From Candidatus Nitrosocosmicus sp. (GTDB taxonomy: Archaea > Thermoproteota > Nitrososphaeria > Nitrososphaerales > Nitrososphaeraceae), in NCBI GenBank assembly GCA_025934495.1, contig JAICXY010000023.1, positions 1 through 37,599 on the forward strand: 37,599 nucleotides of DNA. The letters are read 5' to 3'. The position numbers and the translations under genes are program-made. The notes under the pieces are model-generated. The model had not been told where the DNA came from. It saw nothing but the letters and a program-made list of their open reading frames with translations, and did no database searches. Shown here in pieces: positions 14,922 through 23,500 of this stretch; position 1 is the stretch's first letter, and each line of letters opens with the position of its first letter.

Positions 14922-15271
14922 GTAAAAGGTAACCCGCATATTGTTATTATTAATAAGATTTATTGAAAGAACTATACAATATCAAAGACAGAACTGAGAT
15001 CTTTGACGATTACTCTCCATGTAGAAAAAAAGAAATGTAAATTAAAATATATATTAATTGGTTGAATCTATTTGTAGATTATCATAATGAGGATTAAGTC
15101 TTAAGTGAACAGGGCCTAATTACTACATTTGATATTTTATATGCATTGCAATAGGCTATTTTTAAAAAAAAAGCTACTTTTATTTGGATTTATTAAAAAG
15201 TTAACTTTGACTGATAACGAATTATTGTATTATTATTTACATTTTTATTATGCTAGAGACATTTGTTAAAT
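14922..15271. other. Intergenic region before the thiolase gene
   Basis: About 350 bp with no convincing gene. A 42-codon frame at 15141-15269 exists but is Leu/Lys/Tyr-rich low-complexity sequence without any family pattern. AT-rich boxes (for example ATATATATTAAT near 15049-15060) could be promoters, and a poly-A run is at 15164-15172. No RNA gene or repeat was seen. Confidence 0.5.
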
Positions 15272-16432
15272 ATGCGTGAAAAGGTCTGTGTACTTGGCGC
15301 TGGTAGTACAAAATATGGTAAATTAAATGAAAGTATTGTTGAAATAGCTCTTAATGCTTCAAAAGATGCCATTGATTCAGCTGGCATAACTCCAAGAGAT
15401 ATAAAGGCTGGGTATATTTCAAATGTTTTTGGTGTTACTGACAAGCAAGTACATATGGCTCCAGTAATTATGAGCAACTTGGGAATACCTGATGTACCTG
15501 GGTTAACTATTGAATCCGCATGTGGATCAGGTTCGATTATGTTTAGGGAAGCCTATGCAAATATTGCTGCAGGATTTTATGATTGTGTTATTGCACTTGG
15601 AGTGGAAAAAATAACACATACTGGAACTGTTGAAAGTACTACTCTATTTTCTTATTGTTCTGATTTTTTTTATGAGGGGGGAAATGGTGCTTCATTTCCT
15701 GGACTTTTTGGCTCCATGGCTAGGGCATATCTTGCTACCTATAAATCCTCAGAAGAAGATCTAGCAAAGATAGCTGTAAAAAATCATGAAAATGGATTTT
15801 TTAATCCAAAAGCACACATTAAAAAAAAAATTACTATAGATGATGTGCTGAATTCACCGGTTGTTGCTTCTCCATTAAAGCTATATGATTGTTGCCCATT
15901 TTCTGATGGTGCATCTGCTGTTATTTTATGTAATGAGGAATTTGCAAAAAAAAGTGGAAAACCCTATCTTGAAGTAATTGGTTCAGGTAGAGGTGCCTCG
16001 CCTGCAGCTGTTCAATCAAGAAAAGATATTACAACTATTCCCAGTACTATTGATGCGGCTCAACAGGCTTATAAAATGGCTAATCTTTCTCCTAAAGATA
16101 TCGATTTTGCAGAAGTTCATGATTGTTTTACTATAGCTGAGCTTATAGATATAGAGGATTTGGGGTTCTTTCCTAAAGGCTCTGGTGCTCAAGCAGTTAG
16201 AGAAGGTCGAACAACATTAAGGGGTGATATTCCTATAAATCCTTCAGGCGGATTAAAATCTAAAGGTCATCCCATTGGCGCAACAGGAGTAGGACAAGTT
16301 GTGGAAGTATTTGAACAATTTACAAACAAAGCTGGTGAAAGAACTGTTAAAGATGCAAAAATAGCATTGACTCATAATTTTGGTGCAACAGGTGCTAGTG
16401 CTGCTGTCCATATTTTTAAAAAAATGGAATAA
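15272..16432 (+). CDS. Thiolase-family acetyl-CoA C-acetyltransferase (archaeal type)
   Basis: An archaeal thiolase (386 aa) of the type that pairs with a DUF35 subunit. The nucleophilic Cys is C84 in IESACGSGSIMF. The second half shows FAEVHDCFTIAELI and GGLKSKGHPIGATG, the His/Cys-bearing segments. In Thaumarchaeota such enzymes are assigned to acetoacetyl-CoA cleavage at the end of the 3-hydroxypropionate/4-hydroxybutyrate carbon fixation cycle, or to acetoacetyl-CoA formation for mevalonate synthesis; the sequence does not tell which. ATG 15272 gives the normal MREKVCVLGAG start, while a TTG at 15263 would add three residues. An ATG at 15250 is out of frame. The DUF35 partner follows after 22 bp. 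Confidence 0.9.
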   Translation: MREKVCVLGAGSTKYGKLNESIVEIALNASKDAIDSAGITPRDIKAGYISNVFGVTDKQVHMAPVIMSNLGIPDVPGLTIESACGSGSIMFREAYANIAAGFYDCVIALGVEKITHTGTVESTTLFSYCSDFFYEGGNGASFPGLFGSMARAYLATYKSSEEDLAKIAVKNHENGFFNPKAHIKKKITIDDVLNSPVVASPLKLYDCCPFSDGASAVILCNEEFAKKSGKPYLEVIGSGRGASPAAVQSRKDITTIPSTIDAAQQAYKMANLSPKDIDFAEVHDCFTIAELIDIEDLGFFPKGSGAQAVREGRTTLRGDIPINPSGGLKSKGHPIGATGVGQVVEVFEQFTNKAGERTVKDAKIALTHNFGATGASAAVHIFKKME

Positions 16433-16454
16433 GTTATAGAGGAAGGGGATTGAA

Positions 16455-16859
16455 TTGTCTAAAGTTCAAACACAAAAACAAAGCTCAAGGGAACAATTTA
16501 TAGACTGTGCAAAAACTGGTAAAATCTTGGTTAATCAATGTAAAAAATGTGATAACCTTATTTTAGAGACTGTATATTTTTGTGATAAATGTTTTAACAA
16601 CTCGTTTAAACAAGTGATATTTAATGGTAAAGGTAAAGTTGTTACATACACAATACAATCTGTTGTTCCTGAAGGGTTCGAAGATGTTGCTTCCTATGCC
16701 TGGGTTGTATTTAAGATGGACGACTGTGGACTTAATGTTTCTGGATTTTTACCCGGAATTTCATCTCCTGCCGATTTGCCTCTGGGAACTCCAATCAAAG
16801 TAATTGATTTTCATGATAAGCATGGCCTAGTTTTGAAAAAAGATGAAAATATCCTTTAA
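16455..16859 (+). CDS. DUF35 OB-fold/zinc-ribbon protein, thiolase partner
   Basis: A 134-aa acyl-CoA-associated protein with a rubredoxin-like zinc ribbon followed by an OB-fold. C29, C32, C43 and C46 form the zinc site (CKKC...CDKC). The OB part contains GKGKVVTYTIQ and the YAWVVFKMDDCGLNVSGFLPG strands. In archaea such proteins bind the thiolase (and HMG-CoA synthase) and help pass CoA-bound intermediates between active sites. It is 22 bp after the thiolase with a good ribosome-binding sequence, GAGGAAGGGGA, ahead of the TTG start at 16455, which supports translation of the two as a unit. Confidence 0.9.
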   Translation: MSKVQTQKQSSREQFIDCAKTGKILVNQCKKCDNLILETVYFCDKCFNNSFKQVIFNGKGKVVTYTIQSVVPEGFEDVASYAWVVFKMDDCGLNVSGFLPGISSPADLPLGTPIKVIDFHDKHGLVLKKDENIL

Positions 16860-16940: not shown

Positions 16941-17552
16941 ATGGAAAAAAGCGGTCTATTCTATAACGATGTTAATAATGCTATTTCGGTGATAAATACA
17001 CAAATTTCTCAATTACAATCAATAGATACAAAATTTTCAAATATTGATGCTAGTTTTAGTTCAAAAATTGCTCAGAATATAAAACTAGGGAATAATGCAA
17101 AAGCCAATGTAATAGCTAATGAGTTGTCTGCCGTTAGAAGATTAAGAAAAAATACACAAAATGTTAGTTTAGCTTTAGAAGTTGTTGCTATACGATTTAC
17201 AACTTTAAATGAATTTTCAACAATGATGGATACTATTAATCCCACTATAGATATGTTAACGGATATCCAAAAGGATCTTTCAAAAGCTGTTCCGTCCGCT
17301 ACCGATGTTCTATCTCAAGTTCATACTTTATCTAGCGATGTATTGATTAATTCTGCCATTAATACCGATGGTAAGATTAATTCAGTGGTTGATAAGGATG
17401 CCTTGTCTATATTAAGTGATGTTCAAAATAGTCTCGAAGACGAAGCTAAAGAAAAATTACCTGAAGTTCCAGAATCTATTATTTCTAAAAGATCTAATGT
17501 TAATTTAAAAGATGATATATTAAATAGCGGTCAAATATTATTGGAAACCTAG
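16941..17552 (+). CDS. ESCRT-III/Snf7 family protein, CdvB-like
   Basis: A CdvB-type cell-division protein (203 aa). ESCRT-III-like CdvB forms filaments at mid-cell in Thaumarchaeota and is remodelled by the AAA ATPase CdvC. The core is helical: a long helical hairpin at residues ~13-95 with the segment ANELSAVRRLRKNTQNVSLALEVV, then NPTIDMLTDIQKDLSKAVP (~105-125). Near the end KLPEVPES resembles the proline-rich MIM2 tail that binds the MIT domain of CdvC. I saw no N-terminal CdvA-type motif. Thaumarchaeota usually encode several CdvB paralogues; no cdvA or cdvC lies in the window. ATG 16941 is clear. Its position just upstream of the dNTP-synthesis genes may link division and replication, but that is only neighbourhood. 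Confidence 0.75.
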   Translation: MEKSGLFYNDVNNAISVINTQISQLQSIDTKFSNIDASFSSKIAQNIKLGNNAKANVIANELSAVRRLRKNTQNVSLALEVVAIRFTTLNEFSTMMDTINPTIDMLTDIQKDLSKAVPSATDVLSQVHTLSSDVLINSAINTDGKINSVVDKDALSILSDVQNSLEDEAKEKLPEVPESIISKRSNVNLKDDILNSGQILLET

Positions 17553-17597
17553 AATAAATTTTCTACTCTTTTTTAATACGTTTTTTTTATTAGTTTT

Positions 17598-17607
17598 ATT
17601 TATATAT
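17598..17607 (+). promoter_or_regulatory. TATA-like box of the wHTH/ATP-cone gene
   Basis: ATTTATATAT lies 25-34 nt before the TTG start at 17632, the distance expected for transcription to begin at or next to the start codon, so the message is probably leaderless. Confidence 0.5.
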
Positions 17608-17631
17608 CAATAATTGGACTGCTTTTTATAG

Positions 17632-19689
17632 TTGAGGATTACATATTTACCAGCGTCGGAAACTAAACGAGGTATTTTGGAATCTACATCCAAACGAGTA
17701 AGAATGATTTTTTCAGTAATGGCAAGTCCTAATAGAATTGATATTTTACGTATCCTGAATTCTAAAGGACCGTTGACTTATTCGGAATTAAAATCTTTAG
17801 CAGGATTTAGATCCAAAAAAGAATCTGGAAAATTTGCTTATCATTTAAGAAAGCTGTTAAGACAATCATTGGTTGGTCTAAATAAAGCAGAAAGACGATA
17901 TGCTATTACTAATTTGGGAAAGTTGGTTTTAAACTTGGCCCGACAAATAGAAGAAAAATCCATAATTGAAAGTGGAAAAATGTATGTAAGGACAAGTAAT
18001 CAAACCATTGAAGAATTCAATCCTCATAAAATAGTACAATGCTTGGTGAGGGAGGCAAATATGTCATTAGAACAAGCTACAAAAATTACGGAAGAAGTGG
18101 AAAATAAAATATATAAATCGCCTGCTTCTTACTTGACCTCTAGTTTTATAAGAAATTGTGTTAACCATGTATTATTAGATCATGATTTAGAAGAACAAAT
18201 GAATAAATTAATCAGACTTGGTATTCCTGTTTATGATTTGGATAAAAAACTAAATAATAATGGATTGTTAAATAATGGTATTAATGATATAGTTATTGAT
18301 ATTTCAAAAAGCGTATTTTCTGATTATTTCAAAAATAATTTTCCTAAAGATATCTTAGATATGCATTTTAATGGTGAAATTCATTTAGATGATTTAGGTA
18401 TCTGGGGTATCTGTCCTGATACTATTTTTATTGACATTGAAAATTTTTTGGAAAAAGGAATCCATCTAGATAGTCAATTTCCTTATTTACCAAGATTTCC
18501 CTATTTAGATAATGCTAGGATAATTTTACCACTTTTAGTTTCTATTTTTCAAAGACAAGTTTCAAAAGAAATAGTTGTTGAAAATATTGCAAAATTGTTT
18601 GATGGTTTTTCATCTTTTGAAGATATATCTTCAAGCTTTGCAAATTCTTTATTAACTTCCTCTTTTTCTATTCATTCTCTAGATTCTCCTTTTATTACTC
18701 TTGTCATTTCATTAAAAGAAAACGATGGTATTTTATTGAGTATTTTAAATGGGTACCTAATGTATCTTGAAAGGATTCCATTGTGTAAATTTGGAATTTT
18801 TATCTTATTTTCTACTTCGCTTTCTGTGGAAGTTTTAAACATGGTATCAAAAATTGTCCGATTTGGTGGAAAGATATCTTTGTCACGAAAATCGATTAGA
18901 AGCAGTAAAGGAGTTTTTAAGATAAGTGATGGCACGAACTTGCCTGTAATTTCTTTGCATTCTCTCTCGTTAAATCTTCCTCATTTAGCTTATCAATCGA
19001 ATAAAGATGAAACTTATTTTAGAACAAAACTGGCGTTATTGTTAAAACCTTCATTAAATGCCTTGATATCAAAGAGAGATATGATATTTAATAATATTAG
19101 AAAAGGTTTATTGCCGGCATTATCCAATCCTCTTATGTTTCCCAAATCAGGATCTACTAATATGCTAATTAATTTAACTGGATTAAATGAATCTATTTTT
19201 GATATTTTAGGATATATTGATAATAGTGAGAAAGGTATCGAAATAGTACAAAAAGTTATTAAAACTGCCAATGATATTGTTTTCAATTTTGATAAGAAAA
19301 ATTATGAACATTTTGGAATTTCAATAATTAATGATAATAGTTCCAAACGATTTGCTCAGCTGGATTCTAAAAAATTTGGTAAACTATCTCATACTTTTGG
19401 CTCATACTCTCAAGGTTTAATTATTACCAAAAAGGATCTAGAAGGAAATTCTCTACCTCGAAATTTACTTTTGTTAGATGATTTATTAACTGGTGGTTTT
19501 TCTGTCAAATTGGATACTACTAATCTTCGTTTAGATGATACCGTTGACTTTATATCTAAATCTGTAGATTTAATTCCTTATTTTGACATAATTGATAGAC
19601 AGATTATTTGTAGTGTTTGTGGCTCTAGAGTTGTAACCAATGATATGTGTTCTGTGTGTAACTCTAATAATTTGATAACTTTAACCTAA
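17632..19689 (+). CDS. wHTH + ATP-cone + NrdD-like protein lacking the glycyl-radical site (putative dNTP-sensing regulator)
   Basis: A 685-aa three-part protein. Residues ~20-105 are an ArsR-like winged helix (RIDILRILNSKGPLTYSEL, KFAYHLRKLLRQSLV). Residues ~118-205 are an ATP-cone (EFNPHKIVQCLVREANMSLE, SFIRNCVNHVLLDHDLEEQ), the module that senses ATP/dATP in ribonucleotide reductases and in NrdR. The rest (~215-685) follows the anaerobic reductase NrdD in length and ends with its zinc site, C660-x2-C663 and C673-x2-C676. The chain stops nine residues after C676, so the Gly-radical motif (RVxGY) that must follow is absent. I infer a catalytically dead NrdD turned regulator. It lies 53 bp before nrdJ on the same strand. 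The TTG start fits a TATA box at 17598. Confidence 0.75.
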   Translation: MRITYLPASETKRGILESTSKRVRMIFSVMASPNRIDILRILNSKGPLTYSELKSLAGFRSKKESGKFAYHLRKLLRQSLVGLNKAERRYAITNLGKLVLNLARQIEEKSIIESGKMYVRTSNQTIEEFNPHKIVQCLVREANMSLEQATKITEEVENKIYKSPASYLTSSFIRNCVNHVLLDHDLEEQMNKLIRLGIPVYDLDKKLNNNGLLNNGINDIVIDISKSVFSDYFKNNFPKDILDMHFNGEIHLDDLGIWGICPDTIFIDIENFLEKGIHLDSQFPYLPRFPYLDNARIILPLLVSIFQRQVSKEIVVENIAKLFDGFSSFEDISSSFANSLLTSSFSIHSLDSPFITLVISLKENDGILLSILNGYLMYLERIPLCKFGIFILFSTSLSVEVLNMVSKIVRFGGKISLSRKSIRSSKGVFKISDGTNLPVISLHSLSLNLPHLAYQSNKDETYFRTKLALLLKPSLNALISKRDMIFNNIRKGLLPALSNPLMFPKSGSTNMLINLTGLNESIFDILGYIDNSEKGIEIVQKVIKTANDIVFNFDKKNYEHFGISIINDNSSKRFAQLDSKKFGKLSHTFGSYSQGLIITKKDLEGNSLPRNLLLLDDLLTGGFSVKLDTTNLRLDDTVDFISKSVDLIPYFDIIDRQIICSVCGSRVVTNDMCSVCNSNNLITLT

Positions 19690-19742
19690 CTAATGTAATA
19701 AAAATTTTTATTAAACGATATGGATATTTTATTGTTATCTGT

Positions 19743-22505
19743 ATGGCAGAAACTGATCTTCATAATTCAGAAAATAAATCTATTTTTCATATAAAGAAAA
19801 GAAATGGAAAAATAGTAAATTTTGAACAATCGAAAATATCAAATGCGATATACAAAGCATTAGCTGCAGCTGGCAAATCTGATCGAAAGTTAGCTGAATC
19901 GCTTGCAACCAAATTAGTTAATAAGATAAATAAAAGTGGATATTTGGGATCTGCTAATAGAGATCATGTTTTAAGTGTTGAAGATGTTCAAGACATGGTT
20001 GAATCTATCCTAATAGAAGAAGGCTTGGCTGAAACTGCGAAAGCTTACATATTGTACAGACATGAGAGACGAAAGATCAGAGAAATGAAAATGAAGATAT
20101 TGAATAAAAAAGATCTTGATGAGGTAGACAAAACTTTAGACATAAATTCTCTCCGGGTTCTATCTTCTCGTTATTTGCTTAGAGACCACAATAATGAAAT
20201 TAATGAAGGTCCAAAACAGCTTTTTGAACGCGTTGCAATTTTGGTTGTTATTCCAGATATTATTCATGATTCATCTATTTTTGATTTAAATGGTACTTAC
20301 AAACAATCTATAACCGATGCAGAAAAATATTACGAAAAACTGGATGATTTTAATAATAAATTAAAAATCGGAAGTTATTATTTTAATAAGTTTCATTTTG
20401 AATCATTAATTAGAACTTATATTAATGAAGCAAAAATTGGTAGAATCAAAATAAGCTTCAAAGAATTACTGCGTAGGATAGCGGAAGGAAGAATGGCTAA
20501 TTATAGTAATAAAATATTTGAATATTATAATTTGATGGTTTCGGGAGAATTTCTTCCAAATACTCCTACTCTAATGAACTCTGGTGCTAGATTGGGACAG
20601 CTATCTGCTTGTTTTGTTCTTGATATGCCTGATGATATGTATTCTATAATGAAATCGTCTACTGATGCTGCCATGATTTTTAAATCAGGTGGCGGTGTTG
20701 GAATCAATTACTCAACATTGAGGCCTGAGGGTGATATTGTTGCTTCAACCAGTGGTGTTGCATCCGGACCTGCATCTTTTATGCAAATTATTGATACAGT
20801 GACTGATGTGGTTAAACAAGGTGGAAAAAGACGTGGTGCTAATATGGGTATTTTGGAAACTTGGCATCCAGATATTGAAAAATTTATTATAATGAAAACC
20901 AAACCTGGTTTATATGAGAACTTTAATGTTAGTGTTGGAATTTGGTCTGATTTTTGGGATTCCTTAGTAAGTAAAGATGATCATAGGTATTCTTTAAGAA
21001 ATCCTAGAACTAAAGCACATGTAAAAAATATTGATTCTCATCAACTAATGGAGCTAATTGCTTTAAGTGCATGGAAAAGTGCTGAACCAGGTGTTATATT
21101 CTTTGATAACATAAATAAATATAATCCATGCATCGAGGCAAAAGGTGGTCCCCTTAGAGCAACAAATCCCTGCGGAGAACAATCTTTATATCCTTACGAG
21201 TCTTGTAACCTCGGATCTATTAATCTTTCAAAATTTGTTAAAAGGAAAGCGGATGGACTATATGAATTTGACTGGCAAAAATATGAACAATCAATTAGAG
21301 TTGCAACTAGATTTTTAGATAATATAATAGATGCCAACAAATATCCTGTAGAAGAAATTGATGTAAATACAAAATTAACTAGACGTATAGGCTTAGGTAT
21401 CATGGGTATTGCTGATTTGCTTTTCCTATTACAAATACCGTATAACTCAAAAGAGGGGTATGATCTTATGAGCAAACTTGCAGAAACATTGTCATATTTT
21501 AGTATGGATGAAAGCGTAGTTATTTCAAAATCTAAAGGTCCTTTTCCATTATTTTATGATACGACTTATAAAAATGGAGTTATTCCTTTGTCTGGCTACT
21601 ATGAAATTCCTAAAGATCTACATTGTTATGATTGGGACTCTTTGATAGAGAAAATTAAAACTTATGGTATTAGAAACTCTTGGACTACTACTATTGCACC
21701 TACTGGTACCTTATCAATGATTGCAGATGTATCAAATGGTGTGGAACCAGTTTTTGCTTTGGTGTTTGAAAAACGTGTCACGGTAGGTAGATTCTTTTAT
21801 ACTAGTAAAATTTTTGAAAATGTTTTAAAAGAATATGGATTATATAATGATGAAATTTTATCAAAAATTTCTAATAATTATGGTTCAGTACGTGGAATAG
21901 ATGAAATTCCTGAATGGATACAAAATATTTTTGTTACTGCTATTGATGTACACTGGACTGATCATCTTATGGCTCAGGCAGTGTGGCAAAAATGGATTGG
22001 TAATGCAATTGCAAAAACAATAAATATGCCTGGGGATGTTTCGGTTGAAGATGTAAAATGTGCTTATTTGTTGGCTCATGAATTTGGTTTAAAAGGCGTT
22101 ACCATTTATAGAGACGGTTCAAGAAACGAACAAGTATTGCATATTACCGGTAATGAGCGTGACAAAAAATTTCAAGTGAAACCTAGTACATATTTACATG
22201 ATTATATTTTCAAAAATATACATGAGCCATATGTTCTTGAACAAGTTACTCCTATTTTTAAAAGCTATTTGGATAATGATATTGCAACTGCTACCGCTAC
22301 TGTTGGTAACGCTAAATTTAACAACGAATTAGAGCCAACCAATTTTGAAGCTAATCCGATTTCAATAAGGGCTTCTGATTCATATGTTAATTCTATACCT
22401 GAAAATAACAAAGAGTTATGTCCATCTTGTAAAAATTTCTTGATAATCACTGAAGGATGTAATATGTGTATTGAATGTGGGTTTAGTAGTTGTGCGTCAG
22501 GATAG
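19743..22505 (+). CDS. nrdJ: Class II (adenosylcobalamin-dependent) ribonucleotide reductase
   Basis: Makes deoxyribonucleotides using B12 to start the radical. It has 920 aa: an ATP-cone at ~15-110, then the large alpha/beta barrel. The radical-bearing Cys is C477 in N475-P-C-G-E479, and the redox pair is C290 (SACFVLDMP) and C488 (ESCNLGSINL). The loop PTGTLSMIADVSNGVEPVFA and the FKSGGGVGINYS motif are typical of NrdJ. The tail carries a cysteine cluster (C893, C896, C906, C909, C912, C917), the zinc/redox tail that re-reduces the active site. Oxygen-independent class II activity suits microaerophilic ammonia oxidisers. ATG 19743 lies 53 bp after the wHTH/ATP-cone/NrdD-like gene, its probable regulator or partner. 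Confidence 0.93.
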   Translation: MAETDLHNSENKSIFHIKKRNGKIVNFEQSKISNAIYKALAAAGKSDRKLAESLATKLVNKINKSGYLGSANRDHVLSVEDVQDMVESILIEEGLAETAKAYILYRHERRKIREMKMKILNKKDLDEVDKTLDINSLRVLSSRYLLRDHNNEINEGPKQLFERVAILVVIPDIIHDSSIFDLNGTYKQSITDAEKYYEKLDDFNNKLKIGSYYFNKFHFESLIRTYINEAKIGRIKISFKELLRRIAEGRMANYSNKIFEYYNLMVSGEFLPNTPTLMNSGARLGQLSACFVLDMPDDMYSIMKSSTDAAMIFKSGGGVGINYSTLRPEGDIVASTSGVASGPASFMQIIDTVTDVVKQGGKRRGANMGILETWHPDIEKFIIMKTKPGLYENFNVSVGIWSDFWDSLVSKDDHRYSLRNPRTKAHVKNIDSHQLMELIALSAWKSAEPGVIFFDNINKYNPCIEAKGGPLRATNPCGEQSLYPYESCNLGSINLSKFVKRKADGLYEFDWQKYEQSIRVATRFLDNIIDANKYPVEEIDVNTKLTRRIGLGIMGIADLLFLLQIPYNSKEGYDLMSKLAETLSYFSMDESVVISKSKGPFPLFYDTTYKNGVIPLSGYYEIPKDLHCYDWDSLIEKIKTYGIRNSWTTTIAPTGTLSMIADVSNGVEPVFALVFEKRVTVGRFFYTSKIFENVLKEYGLYNDEILSKISNNYGSVRGIDEIPEWIQNIFVTAIDVHWTDHLMAQAVWQKWIGNAIAKTINMPGDVSVEDVKCAYLLAHEFGLKGVTIYRDGSRNEQVLHITGNERDKKFQVKPSTYLHDYIFKNIHEPYVLEQVTPIFKSYLDNDIATATATVGNAKFNNELEPTNFEANPISIRASDSYVNSIPENNKELCPSCKNFLIITEGCNMCIECGFSSCASG

Positions 22506-22561: not shown

Positions 22562-23500
22562 ATGCCTAGTAACAAATTTTTTAATCGGAGTATTATTTCA
22601 ATAAGGGATTTTACTATTGATGATTTTGCCTATCTTTTTGATCTTACTGACAAAATACAATCTTTAACGTCTAATGAGCGGGGCGAGATTGCAAAAGGTC
22701 TAATACTTGGATATATTTTTTATGAATATAGTACAAGAACAAGATTGAGTTTTGAATCTGCTATGGCATCTATTGGTGGTAGGTCCTTGGGAATATCCAA
22801 TATTGATTCTTCTTCTATCATGAAAGGTGAAAGCTATGCTGACACAATAAAAACAATATCTTTGTATTCTGATGTTGTTTTAATACGTCATCCATCGGAT
22901 GGTTCTAGCCGTTACGCTAGTGAAATTTCAGATAAACCTGTGATAAATGGCGGTAGCGGTAGTGAAGAGCATCCGACACAAGCTATGTTGGATATCTATA
23001 CGATATTCAAAGAGAAAAAACGAATTAATGGGTTATCTATTGGAATCGTTGGTGATTTAAAATACGGTCGTACTGTTTATTCTTTAATATATGGATTATC
23101 TACCTATGATGTAGATATTCATCTAGTTTCTCCTTCTGTGTTGAAAATTAGGAGTGAATCAATAGATGACATTCCAAATAATATAAAGATGTTTCATCAT
23201 ACTGAATTAACTGACGATTTGTTGAAAAAATTAGATGTTATTTATGTTACTAGAATTCAGAGGGAGCGATTCCCTGACTTACAAGAATATAAAAAAATCC
23301 AAGGATTGTATACTATTGATGAAAATATACTGAAAAGATCCAAACCTGATGTTGCGATTTTACATCCTTTGCCCCGAGTTGATGAAATCTCTCCATCAAT
23401 TGATAATACAACAAATGCTGTGTATTTTAAACAAGCCTCTTATGGTAAAGAATTACGATCTGCACTTTTATCTGCATTGCTTCATGAGAATCCATTTTAA
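22562..23500 (+). CDS. pyrB: Aspartate carbamoyltransferase catalytic subunit
   Basis: Second step of pyrimidine synthesis: carbamoyl phosphate plus aspartate. The 312-aa size is usual. The carbamoyl-phosphate site is FYEYSTRTRLSFESAM (STRTR motif) near residues 56-71; SMKGESYADT-type loop residues, as SSIMKGESYADTIK, follow, and the GSGSEEHPTQAMLDIYTI block and the aspartate-binding YVTRIQRERF are present. ATG 22562 has a TATA-like ATAAATTTT at 22529. The regulatory subunit gene pyrI is not next to it; a 500-bp empty stretch follows, so PyrI is either elsewhere or absent. Confidence 0.95.
   Translation: MPSNKFFNRSIISIRDFTIDDFAYLFDLTDKIQSLTSNERGEIAKGLILGYIFYEYSTRTRLSFESAMASIGGRSLGISNIDSSSIMKGESYADTIKTISLYSDVVLIRHPSDGSSRYASEISDKPVINGGSGSEEHPTQAMLDIYTIFKEKKRINGLSIGIVGDLKYGRTVYSLIYGLSTYDVDIHLVSPSVLKIRSESIDDIPNNIKMFHHTELTDDLLKKLDVIYVTRIQRERFPDLQEYKKIQGLYTIDENILKRSKPDVAILHPLPRVDEISPSIDNTTNAVYFKQASYGKELRSALLSALLHENPF

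Follow-up and report, generated by a model that had tools for sequence, protein, structure and literature searches.

An apparently dead class III ribonucleotide reductase with a DNA-binding head as a candidate transcriptional switch for archaeal nrdJ

How do archaea that lack NrdR tune the transcription of a sole, essential ribonucleotide reductase (RNR)? A protein of the ammonia-oxidising archaea, which are abundant in ocean and soil, offers a concrete candidate for the answer. It is encoded in a 37,599-nucleotide stretch of a Candidatus Nitrosocosmicus genome (contig JAICXY010000023.1; this whole stretch is called the window) and is named REG here: 685 amino acids that join a winged helix (wHTH), an ATP-cone and a dead NrdD. 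In these archaea and related lineages its gene stands directly ahead of nrdJ, the gene of the working reductase, and REG is therefore probably the long-missing archaeal switch for that enzyme. The reading that we prefer, and on balance consider probable as a whole, is that REG would be a transcription regulator derived from a reductase, NrdR-like in its logic but not an NrdR. Its parts differ in strength: REG is very probably a DNA-binding regulator; that it regulates nrdJ in the window's order (Nitrososphaerales) is likely; dATP is a fairly likely signal; and repression is somewhat easier to credit than activation. DNA binding, the identity of the nucleotide and repression we infer from sequence. 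The support consists of the architecture, the loss of catalysis, the ancient spread of the family, its linkage to nrdJ, a constrained DNA-binding head, and the enrichment of a palindrome in several families. If it is a regulator, REG would be a clear example of an entire metabolic enzyme recruited to control transcription in the pathway it came from; sister classes still show intermediate stages in the decay of the enzyme part. No description of the family was found in the open-access papers searched.

The REG gene (17632..19689, + strand, with a TTG start) is placed by the list of open reading frames, Pfam, structure matches and alignment. Its segments, all on the same strand, are a winged helix (residues 20-105; 17689..17946), an ATP-cone (residues 117-205; 17980..18246; Pfam and conservation), an NrdD barrel that appears to be catalytically dead (residues 206-655; 18247..19596; Pfam, PDB fold matches and alignment) and, recognized by alignment, the NrdD-type zinc site C660/C663/C673/C676 (19609..19659). 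The recognition helix of the DNA-binding head, SKKESGKFAYHLRKLL, is almost invariant. Pfam finds DUF7347 (PF24038) and HTH_20 (PF12840) at residues 26-100 and the ATP-cone (PF03477) at 117-190 (45.6 bits, cut-off 25.8), and places NRDD (PF13597) at 427-680 (66.4 bits, cut-off 26.2). All of these are above the respective cut-offs, and the last is the only NRDD match in the window genome. The first-pass annotation had read the same coordinates and the same order of winged helix, ATP-cone and NrdD body from the DNA letters, and the frame list and Pfam bear it out. The NrdD-like body, without which its proposal would fall, is there by Pfam NRDD and in an AlphaFold model that folds as NrdD: the model (made from a 33-row alignment) has a mean pLDDT of 82.9, every one of its top 36 PDB matches is a class III reductase (E 5e-20 to 2e-10), and the T. 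maritima enzyme (4col) superimposes with a TM score of 0.62 on target length. The NCBIfam NrdD equivalog TIGR02487 scores the whole protein at 58 bits against a cut-off of 326, which makes REG a distant relative of NrdD and not a standard one.

The downstream neighbour, nrdJ (19743..22505, + strand), encodes a class II, B12-dependent reductase of 920 amino acids with an ATP-cone of its own (Pfam, NCBIfam). It begins after a gap of 53 bp. Nothing else in the window genome matches the barrel family of class I/II reductases, so NrdJ is that genome's only apparent reductase. The pairing, which the first-pass annotation could see at one locus, holds throughout the order: in every distinct genome with a long enough contig (38/38), the gene directly 3' of REG is a co-directional nrdJ. 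Counting named records, which partly repeat genomes, it is directly downstream at 105 of 106 loci (L158 is the exception), across gaps of 53-525 bp (median, 214). The partner itself is not constant. It is drawn from at least three class II subfamilies, the types beside the window's being a PRK08665-like form of 740-790 amino acids, a PRK07562-like form of ~1050, and an intein-bearing form. (At L079 5262-8711, the nrdJ beside REG encodes 1149 amino acids with an apparent intein; the product additionally matches a model for replicative DNA helicases.) Six of nine partner NrdJs examined are missing the ATP-cone, so that REG holds the sole ATP-cone of the pair in those lineages. A 99%-complete genome, G042, is without REG and retains only a lone nrdJ, whose counterpart in the sister species G056 is a second copy located apart from the REG-nrdJ pair; REG and the paired nrdJ were thus apparently lost together. 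Second, lone nrdJ genes with an N-terminal ATP-cone-like stretch are seen in one genus of the order (L230 904-3024; L229 9346-11469), and one species of that genus retains the lone gene only, REG and its paired nrdJ having been lost. NrdR above the TIGR00244 cut-off is found in none of 61 genomes of the order, and the NrdR model is also not among the matches of REG.

What might such a switch bind? A palindrome, GTNAA-N4..6-TTNAC, was spotted by eye, as GTNAA-N5/6-TTNAC, upstream of REG in the Nitrososphaeraceae and upstream of nrdJ in the Nitrosopumilaceae; upstream regions of other genes at the same loci and scrambled patterns served as controls. It occurs ahead of Nitrososphaeraceae REG at 18 of 19 loci (0/96 control promoters), just 5' of a putative TATA box, and ahead of Nitrosopumilaceae nrdJ at 15 of 50 (controls, 4/264). 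Its placement differs with the family: at REG only in the former and nearly always at nrdJ in the latter. Fourteen families with no part in motif discovery have it at 13 of 36 promoters versus 3 of 101 (Fisher 1.4e-6, for related sequences and tests that are not independent); these matches come from eight of the families and are located at REG and at nrdJ both. Scrambled patterns stay at the background level. The exact palindrome was not found at the REG or nrdJ promoter of the window, nor in its genus, with the exception of a site upstream of REG in L121; the winged helix of the window REG is nonetheless 91-98% conserved to its relatives, and the operator of this genus is accordingly only a candidate. 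That candidate is the element TAGTTTTATTTATATATCAA (17591..17610, + strand), which lies 21 bp before the TTG start of REG and overlaps a putative TATA box. Nearly all aligned species of the genus share this 20-bp element (TAGTTTTATTTATATA) without a change, and five genomes that carry it have exactly one copy each, in every case upstream of REG; in most species of the genus it extends to an imperfect palindrome, TAGT-N11-ACTA, the right arm of which is degenerate in the window. A perfect 18-bp palindrome in the 53-bp gap before nrdJ, TAATAAAAATTTTTATTA (19696..19713, + strand), is a weak operator candidate: it is of low complexity and is not conserved across the genus. A block ~60 bp upstream of nrdJ, AATAAGCTATCGAAATTAATATAAACGATCTATAAATAATATATAAATG, is almost unchanged in the Nitrosocosmicus relatives L060-L062 and L120-L122, though not in the window or L057-L059, which differ at this place; it contains an inverted repeat, TATCG/CGATC, that does not resemble the GTNAA motif. 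Motifs delivered by unbiased palindromic EM on Nitrosopumilaceae upstream regions were dropped as coding or ancestry-shared blocks, and a position matrix built from Nitrososphaeraceae REG promoters transferred poorly to the Nitrosopumilaceae and to the window's genus. A genome-wide scan with the strict 20-bp palindrome turned up a handful of additional sites, roughly as often as its reversed control did, and no wider regulon is therefore claimed.

Within the order, REG was found in 59 of 61 genomes, almost always at full length. It also occurs in at least 76 more genomes of the phylum, as open reading frames of 735-856 amino acids, counting matches that run through winged helix and ATP-cone both, with E 2e-46 or better. 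The first-pass annotation had taken the fusion for a local one of the Thaumarchaeota. That part does not stand: the family is phylum-wide, and elsewhere its gene is found beside pyrB/pyrI or a working nrdD. A reductase gene follows REG at 3 of 19 outgroup loci (nrdD at L104 and L114, nrdJ at L097). The nrdD genes in question (L104 5522-7732 and L114 4983-7184, from two genomes that belong to a different family within the phylum) lie directly 3' of REG on the same strand and encode a working NrdD with the radical loop SRVTGYY. Is REG, then, mainly a regulator of its own gene and of pyrimidine supply through pyrB/pyrI, or of nucleotide metabolism in general, with nrdJ a later and secondary passenger? 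In most of the other classes examined, REG does sit beside pyrB and pyrI and usually not beside an RNR gene; a pyrB homologue adjoins it directly there, and in the window pyrB (aspartate carbamoyltransferase; 22562..23500, + strand) comes after nrdJ. The attachment of the Nitrososphaeraceae palindrome to REG, and not to nrdJ, agrees with this explanation too. On the other hand, pyrB is mostly convergent with REG and not co-directional (at L098-L116 often with only a few bases between the stop codons of REG and pyrB/pyrI), and every lineage within the order has nrdJ behind REG, through replacements of nrdJ itself, while pyrB drifts off. The joint absence of REG and the paired nrdJ from G042, where the second, lone nrdJ remains, speaks against the passenger as well, as do the reductase genes behind REG outside the order. 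We regard control chiefly of pyrimidine supply as unlikely.

The pattern of selection bears on a different proposal, namely that REG acts on the NrdJ protein and not on its gene: as a pseudoenzyme partner it would lend NrdJ its ATP-cone and inhibit it at high dATP, with the winged helix serving only for autoregulation. Pseudoenzymes often regulate their catalytic relatives; the adjacency of the two genes is fixed, and several of the partner NrdJs are without an ATP-cone of their own. However, the NrdJ of the window has one, and a specific protein interface would have had to track at least three partner subfamilies. The distribution of constraint within REG speaks against it as well. Between the window and sister species, dN/dS rises from 0.005-0.022 for the winged helix through 0.05-0.095 for the ATP-cone to 0.15-0.17 for the body (0.055-0.079 in nrdJ, for comparison): the body evolves fastest and the DNA-binding head is nearly frozen. 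The protein-partner explanation is, in our judgment, rather improbable. Across the phylum the ATP-cone is the most conserved segment, with 31% of its alignment positions (28/89) at least 90% conserved, compared with 20% in the winged helix and 4% in the body. The guarded parts are those expected to touch DNA and nucleotide, with the enzyme part drifting as a scaffold. Constraint in the DNA-binding head, together with the absence of NrdR and the palindrome in sister families, adds support to the earlier suggestion of an NrdR analogue. (A technical note on the ATP-cone: in a hand alignment, several phosphate contacts of the E. coli type, K9 and R10, are not conserved in REG, nor are they conserved in related active archaeal NrdDs; the choice of nucleotide is consequently not readable from the sequence of REG.)

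That the enzyme part is a catalytically dead NrdD is, judging by its residues, virtually certain. C416, C171 and G711 are the essential residues of P. copri NrdD (PMC11226230). In an alignment of 60 REG proteins with six working archaeal NrdDs, the first-strand cysteine and a cysteine in the radical-initiator region (columns 346 and 567-571 between them), and likewise the radical glycine, are found in none of the 60; the four zinc cysteines are kept in the full-length rows, and so is the NLPR segment. In the window, the zinc cysteines are exact (and invariant in the 33-row REG alignment) and the chain stops nine residues past C676. An NrdD-type zinc site, a stop nine residues later and no glycyl-radical motif were what the first-pass annotation had described, and all three hold, the last of them throughout the aligned family. 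Across the order, REG ends a few residues past the zinc site, ahead of the radical loop. In other classes of the phylum the loop is present in decayed form (e.g., SRSSATYIPLDLWPEAKRRDMESR) with its glycine lost, and L097 has a displaced "SGY" without the catalytic cysteines. The longer outgroup proteins (735-778 aa) were considered as working glycyl-radical NrdDs and rejected, their tails being decayed loops from which the glycine is gone. Continued ribonucleotide reduction, or another radical reaction, would fit the retained fold, zinc site and NLPR segment, and is refuted for a class III reductase by the missing cysteines, glycine and loop; we give it next to no chance.

Nor is there reason to regard REG as an nrdD pseudogene in decay: the body has drifted far from NrdD, as the TIGR02487 score attests, but almost every genome of the order has the frame open, and this and purifying selection (dN/dS 0.12-0.16 for the whole of REG, ~0.01 in the winged helix) refute the idea, which is left with a negligible probability. 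A related notion, that REG is the remnant of an nrdD that decayed after a move to aerobic life, was likewise rejected. Among 18 REG-bearing outgroup genomes, 15 have a separate NrdD above the equivalog cut-off, keeping both proteins, and all 18 have some reductase. The outgroup REGs score 132-326 bits with TIGR02487, all below its cut-off, and show 21-28% identity with a working NrdD from the phylum. A single branch with 100/100 support divides REG from working NrdD in a maximum-likelihood tree. The split and the coexistence indicate that REG, far from being a recent remnant, has long existed as a paralogous family.

How does REG compare with known systems? Like NrdR (TIGR00244), which is described as rare in archaea (PMC9110341), it joins a DNA-binding module to an ATP-cone and is tied to RNR genes, whatever their class; likely autoregulation and candidate palindromic sites by RNR promoters are further points of similarity. 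In NrdR, however, DNA is bound by an N-terminal zinc ribbon, and the protein is ~150 amino acids long and has no reductase body, whereas REG has a winged helix and a whole dead NrdD; its sole zinc site is the C-terminal, NrdD-type one, and its N-terminus has no zinc ribbon. Class III NrdD shares the ATP-cone, barrel fold and C-terminal zinc site with REG, which departs from it in having no radical glycine or catalytic cysteines, in its extra winged helix, and in falling below the equivalog cut-off. The DNA-binding domain is of the same class as the archaeal ArsR-like/HTH_20 and DUF7347 winged helices, but REG is below the cut-off of the ArsR metalloregulator model NF033788 (21.9 bits; cut-off, 55) and has its winged helix fused to ATP-cone and NrdD. 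BirA and PutA are enzyme-derived or "trigger-enzyme" regulators in which a DNA-binding domain is fused to an enzyme of the controlled pathway, with its activity kept; the fusion in REG is similar, but its enzyme part is dead.

A scheme for REG as a regulator can be sketched. The gene of an archaeal class III reductase would have been duplicated, and the duplicate would have shed the catalytic cysteines and the glycyl radical while acquiring an N-terminal winged helix. REG would act as an NrdD-like dimer with paired winged helices. Its ATP-cone would read ATP versus dATP, and the bound nucleotide would alter the assembly state and, with it, the spacing or pairing of the winged helices. ATP-cones change assembly state with ATP or dATP in NrdR (PMC9110341), and dATP moves NrdD dimers to tetramers (PMC11226230). 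REG would then bind a palindrome beside the TATA boxes of the REG and nrdJ genes and at high dATP would block the TATA region, so that repression of both is more likely than activation. One can also entertain, more tentatively, a broader origin: an ancient nucleotide-pool regulator, older than the aerobic ammonia oxidisers, that reads dNTPs through the ATP-cone and perhaps through the former effector and substrate pockets of the barrel, and sets pyrB/pyrI together with whichever reductase a lineage owns. If that were true, REG would stand in for NrdR, which the phylum appears to lack.

Two features upstream of the pair may be added. Directly 5' of REG (16941-17552, + strand) is a gene for a Snf7/ESCRT-III-like protein of the CdvB type (PF03357, E 1.4e-6), and other Nitrososphaeraceae (L197, L199, L200) likewise encode a similar protein 5' of REG, which makes a cell-division gene, the putative regulator and nrdJ all adjacent. 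Farther upstream (15263-16859, + strand) is a pair of genes for a thiolase and an OB-fold (DUF35-type) protein, as is typical for acyl-CoA or mevalonate clusters in archaea.
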